Origin: Haloarcula japonica DSM 6131
GTDB lineage: Archaea; Halobacteriota; Halobacteria; Halobacteriales; Haloarculaceae
Reading direction: 5' to 3'
Assembly: GCF_000336635.1 (NCBI RefSeq)
Contig: NZ_AOLY01000039.1
Span: 291,036-355,035 of the forward strand
Length of the DNA stretch: 64,000 nt
The position numbers and the translations under genes are program-made. This document shows, one piece after another, positions 2,899-12,535 of the stretch; positions within the stretch are counted from its first letter, which is position 1, and each line of letters starts with the position of its first letter. The notes beneath the pieces are model-generated. The model saw only the letters and a program-made list of their open reading frames with translations, had not been told where the DNA came from and ran no database searches.

Positions 2899-4311
2899 TC
2901 AGTCGCCGAACGGCCCCATACCGCCGCCACCCATGCCGCCCATACCGCCGCCACCGCCGCCACCGCCCTGCTGCATCTGTTTCATCATCCGCTCCATGTC
3001 GCCGTCGCCCATGCCCTGGAACTGCTTGAGCATCTGCTCCATCTGCTTGTGCTGCTGGAGGAGTTCACGCACCCGCTCCTCGGGCTTGCCGGACCCACGG
3101 CAGATACGCCTGGTCCGGGACTGGCCGACGACGCGGGGGTTCTCCAGTTCCTCTTCTGTCATCGAGTCCATGATGACGTCGAAGTCCCGCATCCGCTCCT
3201 GGGTCACATCCATCGCGTCGTCCGGGAGCTGGTCCATCAGTCCGCCGCCCAGACCGGGGATCATGTCCATCACCTGGTCGAGCGGCCCCATGTTGTTCAT
3301 CGTCTGCATCTGCTTGCGCATGTCCTTGAGAGTGAACTGCCCCTCCAGCATGTCCTCGGGGTCCCAGTCCTCCTCGTCGCCTTCCTGGGTTTCCTCCATC
3401 GCACGCTCGACCCGTTCGGTGAGCTGTTTGAGGTCGCCCATGCCGAGCAGTCGGGAGATGAACCCGGAGGGCTCGAACCGCTCGATATCCTTGACGGTCT
3501 CCCCGGAGCCGAGGAAGGCGATGGTTGAGTCCGTCTCGTTGACGGCGGCGAGCGCGCCCCCACCTTTCGCCGTCCCGTCGAGCTTCGTGATGACGACGCC
3601 GTCGATGCCGATAGCGGCCTCGAAGTCGGCGGCCTGGCTCTTTGCGCTCTGGCCCATCGCCGCGTCCAGCACGAGCAGGTCCCGGTCCGGCTGGACCTCT
3701 TGCTCGATGCGCTCGATCTGTTCGATAAGCTCCTCGTTCAGGCCGTCACGGCCCGCCGTGTCTACGATGCGAACGTCCGCGTTCTCCGTCGCTTCCAGCC
3801 CGTCGCGGGCGATCTTCACCGGGTCGTCCTCGTCGGGGTCGCCGTAGAAGTCCACCTCGGCGCGCTCGGCCATCTCCTTGGACTGGTCGTACGCGCCGGG
3901 TCGGTCCGTGTCGGTCTGGATGATGGCCGGCCGGAGCCCTTTCGTCGAGAACCACCACGCCATCTTCGCGGCCGTCGTCGTCTTCCCTGAGCCGTACAGG
4001 CCGGCGAGCATGATGGTCTGCTCTTCCAGCGGAAGTTCGGTCGACTCGCCGACGAGGTCGACCAGTTCCTCGTAGACGATTCGCAGGACCCAGTCCCGCG
4101 GCGTCGTGCCCGCCGGGGGTTCCTCCTCCAGCGCCCGCGTCTCAATACTGTCGGAGAGATCCTGAACGAGCCCGACGTCCACGTCGGCCTGCAGCAGCGA
4201 CCGCTGAATCTCCTTGACGATGTCCTCGATGTCCTCCTCGGAGAGCCGGGACTTCCCCCGGAGGTCATCAAGTGTCCCCCGGAGCGAACTCCCAAGATCG
4301 TCGAGTACCAT
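2899..4311 (-). CDS. srp54: Signal recognition particle protein SRP54 (Ffh)
   Basis: A 470-residue SRP GTPase that binds 7S RNA and signal sequences and targets ribosomes to the membrane. Domain order is the N domain (1-95), the G domain with [16 protein letters not shown] and [10 protein letters not shown], then a methionine-rich M domain from about 310 with the RNA-binding [12 protein letters not shown] segment. The tail is very rich in Gly and Met ([18 protein letters not shown]). The receptor FtsY is encoded about 7 kb away on the same strand. The start is the ATG at 4309-4311, with a TTTAC-type element about 30 bp upstream, consistent with a near-leaderless mRNA. Confidence 0.97.
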
Positions 4312-7687: not shown

Positions 7688-7688
7688 T
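7653..7688 (-). terminator. Inverted repeat at the 3' end of the NirA/FrhB-like operon
   Basis: ACTGGAAC at 7653-7660 is perfectly complementary to GTTCCAGT at 7681-7688, and inside it GAGA (7667-7670) can pair with TCTC (7677-7680), leaving a six-base bulge. It overlaps the stop codon of the minus-strand flavoprotein gene. It could be a terminator or mRNA-end stabiliser; no strong T-run follows, so the call is tentative. Confidence 0.4.
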
Positions 7689-9286
7689 CAGTGGTCGCTC
7701 TCGTGTGGATGGAGTTCGGTTCCGTAGTTCGCGGCGTGGTCGGCGTAGTCGATGAACCGGGGGGCGTCGGGGTCGAAGGGTCGTTGCAGCGCGTCGAAGG
7801 CCTTCTTCTTGTCCCAACCCTGTAGCTTGCCGACGGCGGAGCGGTCTTCGAGGTCGTGGTAGTCCAGGTCGGGCTCGGTCAGCTCCCAGGCCCGCAGGCC
7901 GGTTTCGGTCCGGACGATGACCGAGGAGTACTCGTCGCTGGATCCGACGGAACCGACTGTGAGGTCGGCGCAGTAGCCCGTGAAGTCGGCGCACTCGTCA
8001 CAGCCCTTGAGCGCGGCGTCGTGGAAGTTCTCCACATCCTCTTCCAGGAGCATCTCGCCGTCCTCGCCGTACACCATCATCTTCCCGTGGAGCACGTCCA
8101 TCTTGCCGATGTCCGCGCGGTCAATGCCGCGCTCCTCTTCGATGAGTTCGCCGATGAGCGAGTAGTAGTTGAAGTTCTTCGTGCACATCAGCGCGATGGT
8201 GTAGTCGATGGCGCGGACGCCGTCCTCCTGGGCGGCGTAGTCCCAGTCGAAGTCCTGCAGGGCGCGGATCCCCTCGATTTCACAGGGCGTGCCGACCAGC
8301 GCGAGCGAGGCCTCAGGCAGCGGCACGTCGAGTTTGTGCTCCCATTGCGTGAGGTCGAGGTTGCCCAGCGCGAGCGTCTGGTTGTAGAAGCTCCCGGCGT
8401 TCTCGATACACTCCTCGGGCGTCGTTGCGAGGAACGATTCGGCTTTCCACTCGGCGTCGTCGCTCTCGGTGGCGATGAGCGCGCCGTCGATTTCACCGGC
8501 TTCGAGCAGGTGACACAGCACCGAGGTCACGAGGCCGCCGTCCTGTGCGTTCTCGCGCCAGTGGTCCTCGACCTTCGCGGAGAACTCCGTGATGGGGTCG
8601 CCAGCGCCTTTGACGTTGTCGTCGCCGCCGGTGATCTTCCACTGGCGCTCGTAGCGGAGGCCGCCGCGGGGGCACATGTCCCAGCACAGCGAGCAGCCGG
8701 TGCACATCTTCACGAGTTTCGGCAGGTCGTCGTCGCCGATGCCGATGGAGTCGCTGGGACAGGCCGCGACGCAGGTCCCGCACTGGATACAGCGGTCGTC
8801 CTGGATGACGGCCTCGTCGAGTTCCATGAACCACGTCTTGCCCTCGGGCTCCTCGATATCGCTCATCTCCGAACGGATACCGTAGCCGGGCGTGTCGAGG
8901 TCGACGCCGTCGGGGACGTCGACCCGCTCGTCGGGCCGGCCGTCGTCGACGTTCTGACTGGACCCCGTCGCCGGTTCGGTGAACCGGATGGGCTTGAGTT
9001 TGCCGTCCGGTTCGACGTTCGCCGCGCCGGTCCCACCGTCCGGGCGGACCCGGCGCTCCTCGGTGTGGCCGTGACCGCTGTCGCCACCGCTACATCCGCA
9101 ACTGGTCCCGCAGCCACAGTCGTCGTCTTGCCCGTCGTCCGGCACGCCGGGCATGGGCCGGCCGCCGTCGGTCACCAGCGGCGGGTCGGTATCGGTGCGG
9201 TCCGCAGGAGGATCAGGCGTCGACTCGGCGAACTCGGGCGCAACGTCGGCCGGCGCGACCTGCCGCCAGAAACGCCGGTCAGTCAT
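7688..9286 (-). CDS. FrhB/FpoF-like F420-dehydrogenase beta-subunit family iron-sulfur flavoprotein
   Basis: A 532-residue protein. Two ferredoxin-type motifs (C166, C169, C172, C176 and C195, C198, C201, C205) predict two [4Fe-4S] clusters. The C-terminal half has the FrhB family pattern: VGTPCEIEGIRAL, LMCTKNFNY, and GCDECADFTGYCADLTVGSVG, where the FAD/F420 domain and a Cys-bound cluster sit. An unusual low-complexity N-terminus holds C57, C59, C63 and C65 (CGCGTSCGC). The ATG at 9286 overlaps the stop of the NirA-like gene by eight bases, so translation is coupled. It probably passes electrons, possibly from F420H2, to that reductase; this is inferred from context. Confidence 0.85.
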   Translation of the reverse strand: MTDRRFWRQVAPADVAPEFAESTPDPPADRTDTDPPLVTDGGRPMPGVPDDGQDDDCGCGTSCGCSGGDSGHGHTEERRVRPDGGTGAANVEPDGKLKPIRFTEPATGSSQNVDDGRPDERVDVPDGVDLDTPGYGIRSEMSDIEEPEGKTWFMELDEAVIQDDRCIQCGTCVAACPSDSIGIGDDDLPKLVKMCTGCSLCWDMCPRGGLRYERQWKITGGDDNVKGAGDPITEFSAKVEDHWRENAQDGGLVTSVLCHLLEAGEIDGALIATESDDAEWKAESFLATTPEECIENAGSFYNQTLALGNLDLTQWEHKLDVPLPEASLALVGTPCEIEGIRALQDFDWDYAAQEDGVRAIDYTIALMCTKNFNYYSLIGELIEEERGIDRADIGKMDVLHGKMMVYGEDGEMLLEEDVENFHDAALKGCDECADFTGYCADLTVGSVGSSDEYSSVIVRTETGLRAWELTEPDLDYHDLEDRSAVGKLQGWDKKKAFDALQRPFDPDAPRFIDYADHAANYGTELHPHESDH

Positions 9287-11018
9287 CGTCGGCCACCTCC
9301 CCGCGACCGCTGCCATCCCCGTGTGCGACGCCACCGACGACGTTGGCGTCGGCCCGCTGCATCACCGCGCGGAGCCGGTCGTTGCCGACGCGACGGCACC
9401 ACTCGTAGAACCGCTCGCCGTTGTCCCTGTCGTCGGCGTAGGCCTCGAACAGCTCCTCCAGCGCCGGAATGACGGCGTCCGCCGGGACGGCGTGTTCGAC
9501 CCAGTCGAGGAACTCGTTATCCGCGCCGAGGCTCCCGCCCAGGCCAAAGTCCATCCCCTCGACGATATTGTCACCTTCTTCGTTGGTGGTCCCTTCGGGA
9601 TCGTCGACCTGCACCGTCTCGCCCCGGAAGCCGATGTCGGCGATCTGTGGCTGGGCACAGGAGGCCGAGCAGCCGGACATGTGCATCCGGACCACGTTGA
9701 TTTCCTCGGGCACGTCGATGCGGCGGTCGAGCGCCTTCGCCCACCGGCGGACGCGGTTTTTCGTCTCGATGATACCGTAGTTGCAGAACTCCGAACCGGT
9801 GCAGCCGACGGCTCCACGCGAGAACGGGCCGGGGTCGGGCTGGTACTTCCGGGCGAACGGCGTGTTCAACAGATCGCCGAGGTTTTGCTCGGGAACGTGC
9901 GTGACGAGGAAGTTCTGGTCAGTTGCTAGCCTGACTGAGGCGTCTTCGGTGCCGTACTCCCTCGCTGCGTGGGCCGCCCGCCGGAACTCGTCGCCGCCCA
10001 TCCGGCCGGCGATGACGTTGAAGCCGACGTACTTCAGGCCGTCCTCGCGCTGGTCGTGGACGCCGACGTGGTCGCCGCGGTACCCCTCCGTGAGGTCGGT
10101 GCCGCGGGTCGGAAGGTCGACGGCACAACGGTCCCGGACTGCTTCCTCGAATTTCTCCGCGCCCATCTGCTGGACCAGATAGCGCATCCGGCAGACGCCG
10201 CGGTTGTTGCGGTCGCCCAGTTCCTTGAACGTCTGGGCGACGGCCCGACAGAATTCGACGGTGTCCTCCGGCGGCACGAACACGTCGAGGTCCGAGGCCA
10301 TCCGCGGCCCGTCCGAGAGGCCGCCGCCGACCCTGACGTGGAAGCCGTAGTACTGCTCCCCGTCGATTTCGCGACGAGCAGGCGTCAGCCCCACGTCGTT
10401 GATCTGGGACTGGGCGCAGTCCTGTCGGCAGCCGGTGATCGTCAGCTTGAATTTCCGTGGGAGGTTCGCGTACTCCCGGTTCTTCGTGAAGAACTCCGAG
10501 ACGGCGTCGACCACCGGCTGGGCGTCGAAGCACTCGTGGCCGTCCAGGCCGGCGGCGGGACAGCCGAGCACGTTCCGGGCGGAGTCGCCACAGCCCTGGA
10601 CCGTCGTCAACCCGACCTCGTCGTAGCGCTGCCAGATCTCGGGCACGTCCTCGATCTCGATCCAGTGCATCTGGACGTCCTGCCGGGTCGTGATGTCGAG
10701 AAAGGCGTCACCCCAGATGTCGTTCTGCTCCTCGCCGCCGAATTCCTCGGGCGCGGTGGCGTACTCATCGGCCACCTCGCCGATGACTTCGGCCTGCTCC
10801 GGCGAGAGATAGCCCCCCGGGACCTTGGTCCGCATCATGAAGTAGCCGTCCTGGCGGCCGTGGGCGTACAGCCCGGCCCACTTCAGCCGCTCCCACTCGC
10901 CGTCACCGGCCCGGGCCTCGATCTCTTCGAAACTCAGCTCCTCGGCCGCGTACCGCTCGACGTCCTCGATGACGTCCAGCGGGTGCTTCTCCTGTTTCCA
11001 TCGTTCAACTGTGTTCAT
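9279..11018 (-). CDS. nirA: Siroheme / [4Fe-4S] nitrite (or sulfite) reductase, NirA/NasD-like
   Basis: A 579-residue assimilatory-type reductase performing six-electron reduction of nitrite or sulfite. The siroheme-cluster ligands are visible as C406-x5-C412 (GCTGSEFC) and C450-x3-C454 (SGCSASC). Two ferrodoxin-like half domains each precede a reductase domain, with GCGDSARNVLGCPAAG and TITGCRQDCAQSQ in the first. The ATG at 11018 has A/T-rich promoter-like sequence at 11045-11060. No nitrate reductase or nitrite transporter adjoins it here, so nitrite versus sulfite cannot be settled from context. The downstream FrhB-like gene overlaps it and is a candidate electron donor. Confidence 0.9.
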   Translation of the reverse strand: MNTVERWKQEKHPLDVIEDVERYAAEELSFEEIEARAGDGEWERLKWAGLYAHGRQDGYFMMRTKVPGGYLSPEQAEVIGEVADEYATAPEEFGGEEQNDIWGDAFLDITTRQDVQMHWIEIEDVPEIWQRYDEVGLTTVQGCGDSARNVLGCPAAGLDGHECFDAQPVVDAVSEFFTKNREYANLPRKFKLTITGCRQDCAQSQINDVGLTPARREIDGEQYYGFHVRVGGGLSDGPRMASDLDVFVPPEDTVEFCRAVAQTFKELGDRNNRGVCRMRYLVQQMGAEKFEEAVRDRCAVDLPTRGTDLTEGYRGDHVGVHDQREDGLKYVGFNVIAGRMGGDEFRRAAHAAREYGTEDASVRLATDQNFLVTHVPEQNLGDLLNTPFARKYQPDPGPFSRGAVGCTGSEFCNYGIIETKNRVRRWAKALDRRIDVPEEINVVRMHMSGCSASCAQPQIADIGFRGETVQVDDPEGTTNEEGDNIVEGMDFGLGGSLGADNEFLDWVEHAVPADAVIPALEELFEAYADDRDNGERFYEWCRRVGNDRLRAVMQRADANVVGGVAHGDGSGRGEVADDD

Positions 11019-11223
11019 CGGTGGCACACCACAATTTAGTGTGTATTGATAATGAATAACGGACGACTTCAACGCGCCCCTGCCGGCGAAAACGACCACA
11101 CCTCCCTTTATTAGGCAATATTCACCGCCTTATTCGCGGTGCTGTCTCGTCGGACTAGCGCGGACTCTCTTGATTTGACACAATCAGGGCCGACAGGAGC
11201 CGCTCATGCCACGGAGGTAGCAG

Positions 11224-11248: not shown

Positions 11249-12535
11249 CTACTCGCCGATGAGGCTGTCCACGATTTCCTCGGGGTCGAACGGTTCGAGG
11301 TCGTCGTAGTCCTGCCCGGTCCCCAGGAAGAGAATCGGCTTCCCGGTGACGTGGGCGACGGAGATCGCCGCGCCGCCCTGCGGGTCGGCGTCGGCCTTCG
11401 TCAGAATCGCCCCGTCGATCTCGGCCGCGTCGTTGAACTCGCGCGCCCGGTTGACGGCGTCCTGGCCCGCGACCGCCTCGTCGACGAACAGCGTCATGTC
11501 CGGGTCGATGTTGCGGTCGATCTTCTCCAGTTGGGCCATCAGGTCGTCGGAAGTGTGGAGTCGGCCGGCCGTATCGCCGAGTACCACGTCGATGTCGTTG
11601 GCCTTGGCGTACTCGACGGCGTCGTAGACGACCGCCGTCGGGTCCGACCCCTGCTCGTGGGTGATGATCTTCTTGCCGAGGTTCTCGGCGTGCTTTTCGA
11701 GTTGCTCGTTCGCGCCGGCGCGGTAGGTGTCGCCGTTGGCGAGCACCGTCGAGAGCCCGCGCTCCTCGAAGTACCGGGCGAGTTTCGCGATCGAGGTCGT
11801 CTTGCCGACGCCGTTGACGCCGGTGAACACGATGGTGACGGGCTTCTCTGCCTGCTGGACGCGCTCGTCGAAGTCGAACTGGCCGACGTTGATGACGTCG
11901 TACAGCGACTCCCGGAGCGCGTCCCGGACGAGGTTCCCCGTGCTGGAGAGCCGTCGTCGGGTCTGGCCCGTGAGGTTCTCCTTGACGCCGTCGAGAATCT
12001 CGTTGGCGACGCTCATCTCCACGTCGCTCGACAGCAGCGCCAGTTCGAGGTCGTCGAGGTGGCTCTGCAGGTCTTCCTCCTCGATAACCGTCTTCCCGGT
12101 GGCCATGAGCTTCGCCTTCGCAGCGAGGCCGCGGCCGCCGTCGTCCCCCTCTTCGGACGACGAATCGGCTTCAGACGCCGAGTCCGCCTCGGTCTCCGTG
12201 GCGTCGTCAGACTGCGAATCTTCGTCGGGGACCGCATCCCCGTCTTCGGCTGCCGGAGCCGACGCTGTGGCTGGCTCACCTATCGCCTCGGAGTCCGCCG
12301 ACGGCGGTTCAGCGTCAGCCTGTGGCTGCTCGGTTTCGGCTGCCGGTTCCGCCGTGTCGCCGTCGGACGGCTGCACGTCCGTCGCGGGCTCGGATTCAGT
12401 CGGCTGATCGGCAGGCGCTTCCCCGTCCGCCTCGTCGGCGTCCGGTTCATCCTCGGCTTCGAGCGCATCGTCGTCGACGTCTTCCTCGACGTCACTCGTG
12501 AACCCGCTGAGTTTGTCCTTCAGTCCGTCGAACAT
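11249..12535 (-). CDS. ftsY: Signal recognition particle receptor FtsY
   Basis: A 428-residue SRP receptor GTPase. Residues 1-130 are an extremely acidic, Ala/Glu/Asp/Ser-rich domain thought to contact the membrane in haloarchaea. The NG domain follows, with GVNGVGKTT (G1), DTAGRLHTSDDLM (G3) and TKADADPQGG (G4-G5). It pairs with SRP54 at the membrane to hand ribosomes to Sec. It lies six bases downstream of the prefoldin alpha gene and belongs to the LX-pfdA-ftsY operon. The acidic region is longer than in most bacteria but usual for halophiles. Confidence 0.97.
   Translation of the reverse strand: MFDGLKDKLSGFTSDVEEDVDDDALEAEDEPDADEADGEAPADQPTESEPATDVQPSDGDTAEPAAETEQPQADAEPPSADSEAIGEPATASAPAAEDGDAVPDEDSQSDDATETEADSASEADSSSEEGDDGGRGLAAKAKLMATGKTVIEEEDLQSHLDDLELALLSSDVEMSVANEILDGVKENLTGQTRRRLSSTGNLVRDALRESLYDVINVGQFDFDERVQQAEKPVTIVFTGVNGVGKTTSIAKLARYFEERGLSTVLANGDTYRAGANEQLEKHAENLGKKIITHEQGSDPTAVVYDAVEYAKANDIDVVLGDTAGRLHTSDDLMAQLEKIDRNIDPDMTLFVDEAVAGQDAVNRAREFNDAAEIDGAILTKADADPQGGAAISVAHVTGKPILFLGTGQDYDDLEPFDPEEIVDSLIGE

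Follow-up and report, generated by a model that had tools for sequence, protein, structure and literature searches.

A conserved siroheme reductase–FrhB-like gene pair in Haloarcula japonica, probably encoding a two-subunit F420H2-dependent assimilatory sulfite reductase

A pair of haloarchaeal proteins, the α and β subunits of an F420H2-dependent assimilatory sulfite reductase (aFsr), was proposed in 2012 by Susanti and Mukhopadhyay (PMC3448663), and the β subunit was aligned again in a later study (PMC9295563). As originally described, and as found here, the two genes are adjacent and encode an aSir-type siroheme reductase and a free-standing homolog of the N-terminal half of F420-dependent sulfite reductase (Fsr-N). 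A search of the literature readable without subscription returned no report of a biochemical or genetic test of aFsr, F420H2-dependent activity included. The role of F420 in haloarchaea has been called enigmatic, only one reaction that depends on it having been reported (PMC8305020); aFsr, if confirmed, would partly answer how these organisms use F420 and form sulfide.

One such pair lies in the window, the whole stretch of 64,000 nucleotides of Haloarcula japonica DSM 6131 DNA that was analyzed. A sequence-only reading had suggested that the pair may constitute a split Fsr-like system. The idea itself is not new, but it is supported by the linkage of the two genes, the membership of β in the FrhB family, its intact FAD and cluster motifs, and the presence in the genome of cofD, a gene of F420 synthesis; on these grounds the two proteins are probably the subunits of aFsr. 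The locus is a real and widely conserved member of the predicted family. The analysis adds to the 2012 proposal the substrate residues, the contrast with paralogs, a survey of linkage, a rhodanese-fused clade, matching trees, and three extra cysteines.

Both genes are on the minus strand, with the reductase gene preceding the FrhB-like gene. The α gene (9279–11018; 579 amino acids) begins with ATG at 11018 and has its stop at 9279; an in-frame GTG at 11099 is a less likely start, since relatives begin with MNTVExWKQEKHPLD. Its product is a NirA/aSir-type siroheme/[4Fe-4S] reductase, as the sequence-only reading had it, and matches the Pfam families NIR_SIR (6e-56) and, in three stretches, NIR_SIR_ferr. 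The β gene (7688–9286; 532 amino acids; ATG at 9286, stop at 7688) encodes an FrhB/Fsr-N-like putative F420H2 dehydrogenase subunit, assigned from its PDB matches and from Pfam matches to Fer4_21 (4e-10), FrhB_FdhB_N (2.5e-20), and FrhB_FdhB_C (2e-32). The start of β lies within the end of α, and the overlap of eight bases noted earlier was recovered exactly (ATGACTGA, 9286–9279, minus strand); it may couple translation of the two genes. The pair is situated between ftsY (11249–12535) and srp54 (2899–4311), with ftsY and a prefoldin gene on its 5′ side and srp54 on its 3′ side.

The β gene is the only one with an FrhB_FdhB_C domain in the H. japonica genome; Haloferax volcanii, a laboratory strain included as a control, gave no match to this domain. 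Among 98 relatives, its own genome counted, 33 FrhB-type genes are distributed over 29, and every one of the 33 has a NIR_SIR gene directly upstream on the same strand. A scan of the collection yielded 240 relatives; in the best 80, all haloarchaeal, a siroheme reductase gene was present upstream of the FrhB-like gene in 79 of the 80 named loci. The linked pairs fall into two clades, A and D, and span many genera, with gene starts that overlap or abut; overlaps of 8 or 11 bases between the α stop and the β start are seen at 26 of the 27 clade A loci. Both the reductase tree and the FrhB-like tree join clades A and D against the rest, which indicates that the pairing is older than the A/D split. 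Several rows of the reductase tree had untrimmed N-termini, and, judged by the supports, its main clades do not rest on those columns. The pairing of α and β is thus beyond chance. One FrhB-like gene without an adjoining siroheme reductase was found (L155:3740-5155) in Halobacteriales archaeon YIM A00010, where it is the second copy, and such an orphan would be expected if the two proteins were co-transcribed but acted separately, the FrhB-like one serving another F420 reaction. Given linkage across many genera and both clades, and corresponding clades in the two trees, separate action is extremely unlikely.

SRP54 and FtsY matches each occur close to the two genes at 53 of the 112 loci of clades A and D, a count that includes some duplicate genomes and in which both queries may match the same gene; none was found in clade D. 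The clustering of neighbor families that prompted this direct check mixed real and antisense open reading frames and was used for no other purpose.

The β subunit has the two ferredoxin clusters and the FrhB-type C terminus previously ascribed to it. The ferredoxin domain (Fer4_21; 8663–8812, minus strand) carries Cys166, 169, 172, and 176 and Cys195, 198, 201, and 205, and all eight are invariant in 16 sequences of clades A and D. The FrhB core (7880–8584, minus strand), delimited by Pfam and alignment, contains the QDGG FAD loop at residues 248–251 and the ligands of a third [4Fe-4S] cluster, Cys335, 368, 429, and 432. In the alignment, the loops of β correspond to 24QDGG, 71–77, and 131–138 of FrhB, and its cluster cysteines to C104, C134, C192, and C195 (positions from PMC3591093 and PMC3930138), so that the FAD loops and all 12 cluster cysteines are retained. 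The flavin pocket expected from the sequence-only reading is therefore intact in its QDGG motif, flavin loops, and cluster cysteines; in the flavin loop, the position of FrhB Lys75 is taken by Phe, and the F420-reducing enzyme 8riu also lacks this lysine. The N-terminal tail of β (8837–9286, minus strand) is acidic and poorly conserved. It bears a cysteine cluster, CGCGTSCGC; similar clusters occur in many but not all clade A relatives and in none of clade D.

The best PDB matches of β are the Fsr structures 9tn7 (E = 7e-39) and 7np8 (3e-37), and by sequence and fold search its nearest solved relatives are the N-terminal halves of Fsr and an F420-reducing CODH component. The AlphaFold2 models were poor (pLDDT 52 for β and 62 for the other, from shallow alignments) and were used for fold retrieval alone, with distances and interface left unread; the β model retrieved only FrhB-family structures at E < 0.001, with F420 enzymes ranked at the top. 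Against the NCBIfam models for FpoF, β scores 114 bits for a cut-off of 475 (NF040616) and 109 for 444 (NF006808), and it is also far under the cut-off for FrhB. In the phylogenetic comparison with Fsr-N, FpoF, and FrhB that had been suggested, aFsr-β forms its own long-branched, fully supported clade in the FrhB-family tree, with no clearly supported nearest sister, and placement inside any of the three was not supported.

The FrhB family includes a plant enzyme, HCAR, that does not use F420, so membership is no proof of F420 use. Known assimilatory siroheme reductases of the α type take their electrons from ferredoxin. For haloarchaea, the use of F420 has scarcely been documented (PMC8305020). 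It is thus conceivable that β feeds a sulfite reductase from another donor, for example reduced ferredoxin. Such an arrangement is unlikely in view of the F420 enzymes that are the closest relatives of β in both searches and of cofD in the genome, and an FAD subunit would be superfluous for a ferredoxin-fed reductase. F420H2 is the likely donor to α-β, as judged from these sequence features. In the scheme that we infer, α and β would form a complex in which F420H2 gives a hydride to the FAD of β. Electrons would then leave singly through the FrhB-type [4Fe-4S] cluster and the two ferredoxin clusters, which would substitute for free ferredoxin and deliver them to the [4Fe-4S]-siroheme center of α. 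There, six electrons would convert sulfite, the presumed physiological substrate, to sulfide for cysteine synthesis.

The α subunit has the following residues of NirA-type sulfite reductases: two arginines, K-x-K, the active-site cysteine, and CX5C...CX3C. The last of these provides the ligands of the siroheme-coupled [4Fe-4S] cluster, Cys406, 412, 450, and 454 (9657–9803, minus strand), which are invariant in an alignment of 101 sequences. The substrate-binding K189-x-K191 (10446–10454, minus strand) is of the sulfite type, as opposed to the K-x-N of nitrite reductases (NiR); a tobacco NiR chain with Lys instead of Asn is the engineered N226K mutant. Cys143 (10590–10592, minus strand) aligns with the active-site cysteine of Mycobacterium tuberculosis NirA, a sulfite reductase that has this cysteine and KxK in common with α, and is Gly in nitrite-type paralogs. 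Tyr51 (10866–10868, minus strand), invariant in the linked reductases, is replaced by Phe in nitrite reductases from plants and from nas clusters. It may be the equivalent of Tyr69 in the Tyr-Cys pair of M. tuberculosis NirA, in a stretch that gave no alignment to 1zj8.

These residues divide the three siroheme reductases of the H. japonica genome. The α subunit has PRKFK, Cys143, and Tyr51, and the reductase at 48–50 kb of contig C5 has PRKFN, Gly143, and Phe51 and is accompanied by a NasA-type molybdopterin oxidoreductase and two NarK transporters. The third, at 404 kb of contig C39, is also of the sulfite type, so aFsr is not obviously essential in this organism. In the 101-sequence alignment, the combination Y/C/K/K was found in all 27 linked reductases of clade A and all 45 orphan reductases of group B, and F/G/K/N in all 23 nas-type reductases of group C; the six sequences of clade D retain the tyrosine and KxK, with a mixed cysteine position. 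Among the named loci, all 77 that could be read have the sulfite-type set. Group B, which has no FrhB partner, shows that such a partner is not needed wherever the sulfite-type residues occur. In several near-complete genomes (G033, G044, G081, G093, and G063), the clade A enzyme is the only sulfite-type reductase detected. Such a clean split among the paralogs of one genome offers a simple rule for re-annotating haloarchaeal "nitrite reductases." One nas-type reductase (L100; G062:C2:481639-482103) contains an in-frame TAG, which could reflect either an inactivated gene or a sequencing error.

The sequence-only reading had left the substrate as nitrite or sulfite. Sulfite reductases frequently reduce nitrite as well. 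Some Fsr enzymes do so (PMC9295563, PMC10202398). The best PDB matches of α are plant NiR, the nearest by sequence, and M. tuberculosis NirA, with the C-terminal half of Fsr a weak match, and its top NCBIfam score is to ferredoxin-nitrite reductase, although its 390 bits fall short of the 594 required. The pair could then be an F420H2-dependent nitrite reductase that serves to assimilate nitrate or to detoxify nitrite. This is very unlikely, since every linked clade A copy has K-x-K rather than K-x-N together with Y51 and C143, the nitrite-type paralog of this genome adjoins NasA and NarK at a separate locus, several genomes contain the pair and no detected nas-type reductase, and sister clade D bears rhodanese domains. 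Nitrite as the main substrate was rejected on the active-site residues and the location of the pair outside a nas cluster. Sulfite is the likely substrate of the linked reductase, favored by the residues, the context of the paralogs, and the rhodanese fusion.

Three further cysteines, Cys153, Cys197, and Cys201, were located by alignment in the N-terminal, noncatalytic half of α (10416–10562, minus strand). All three are present in 87 of the 101 sequences and none in the other 14. By their spacing from R148 and K189/K191, they appear to match three of the four cluster-ligand positions of Fsr, and a second Fe-S or other metal site in this half of α is possible.

The six linked reductases of clade D (L045, L057, L063, L066, L070, and L071) are ∼800 residues long, with two tandem N-terminal rhodanese domains, and each is followed by an FrhB-like gene. 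Rhodanese frees sulfite from thiosulfate, and the tandem fusion points to sulfite derived from this source. A reductase-rhodanese fusion has been noted before, unconnected with FrhB (PMC11237513), and a rhodanese/thiosulfate route was previously suggested for haloarchaeal sulfide, the PAPS path being reported absent (PMC3402447). A clear PAPS reductase (CysH) match was found in only 2 of 98 relatives, which makes co-occurrence uninformative as a test of sulfate assimilation. Both matches (G080:C37:6352-9373 and G092:C83:52288-55267) belong to one family and adjoin a siroheme reductase. A broader proposal, speculative and on balance doubtful, is that many haloarchaea use F420H2 as a dedicated reductant for assimilating sulfur and that the rhodanese-fused form uses thiosulfate directly. 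In clade D, the rhodanese domains would release sulfite, and the attached siroheme domain would reduce it with electrons from the FrhB-like subunit. If so, the rhodanese-fused form would represent a new, thiosulfate-reducing variant, and F420 would gain a defined role in haloarchaea.

Compared with known systems, β has the features by which aFsr-β is recognized, an FrhB core and two N-terminal ferredoxin [4Fe-4S] motifs. Analogous to β, the N-terminal half of group I Fsr (7np8 from M. jannaschii, 7npa from M. thermolithotrophicus) combines ferredoxin clusters, FAD, and the FrhB cluster. In contrast, Fsr is one polypeptide, where two open reading frames are found here, and its reductase part is a Dsr-like single half with an inserted ferredoxin domain, whereas α is an aSir-type, two-half protein lacking Fer4. 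The ferredoxin-dependent sulfite reductase NirA of M. tuberculosis (1zj8) shares with α the fold, the aligned cysteine, and KxK but lacks Cys153, Cys197, and Cys201. It is not known to have an FrhB partner. The NasA/NarK-linked NirA on contig C5 belongs to the same superfamily and is 39% identical to α but, unlike α, is of the nitrite type (F/G/KxN) and has no FrhB partner. FrhB, FpoF, and other free-standing FrhB-family subunits have the FrhB core and the FAD and cluster ligands in common with β, and FpoF, like β, has ferredoxin clusters. The β subunit differs from FrhB and FpoF in forming a separate clade and in scoring far under their model cut-offs.
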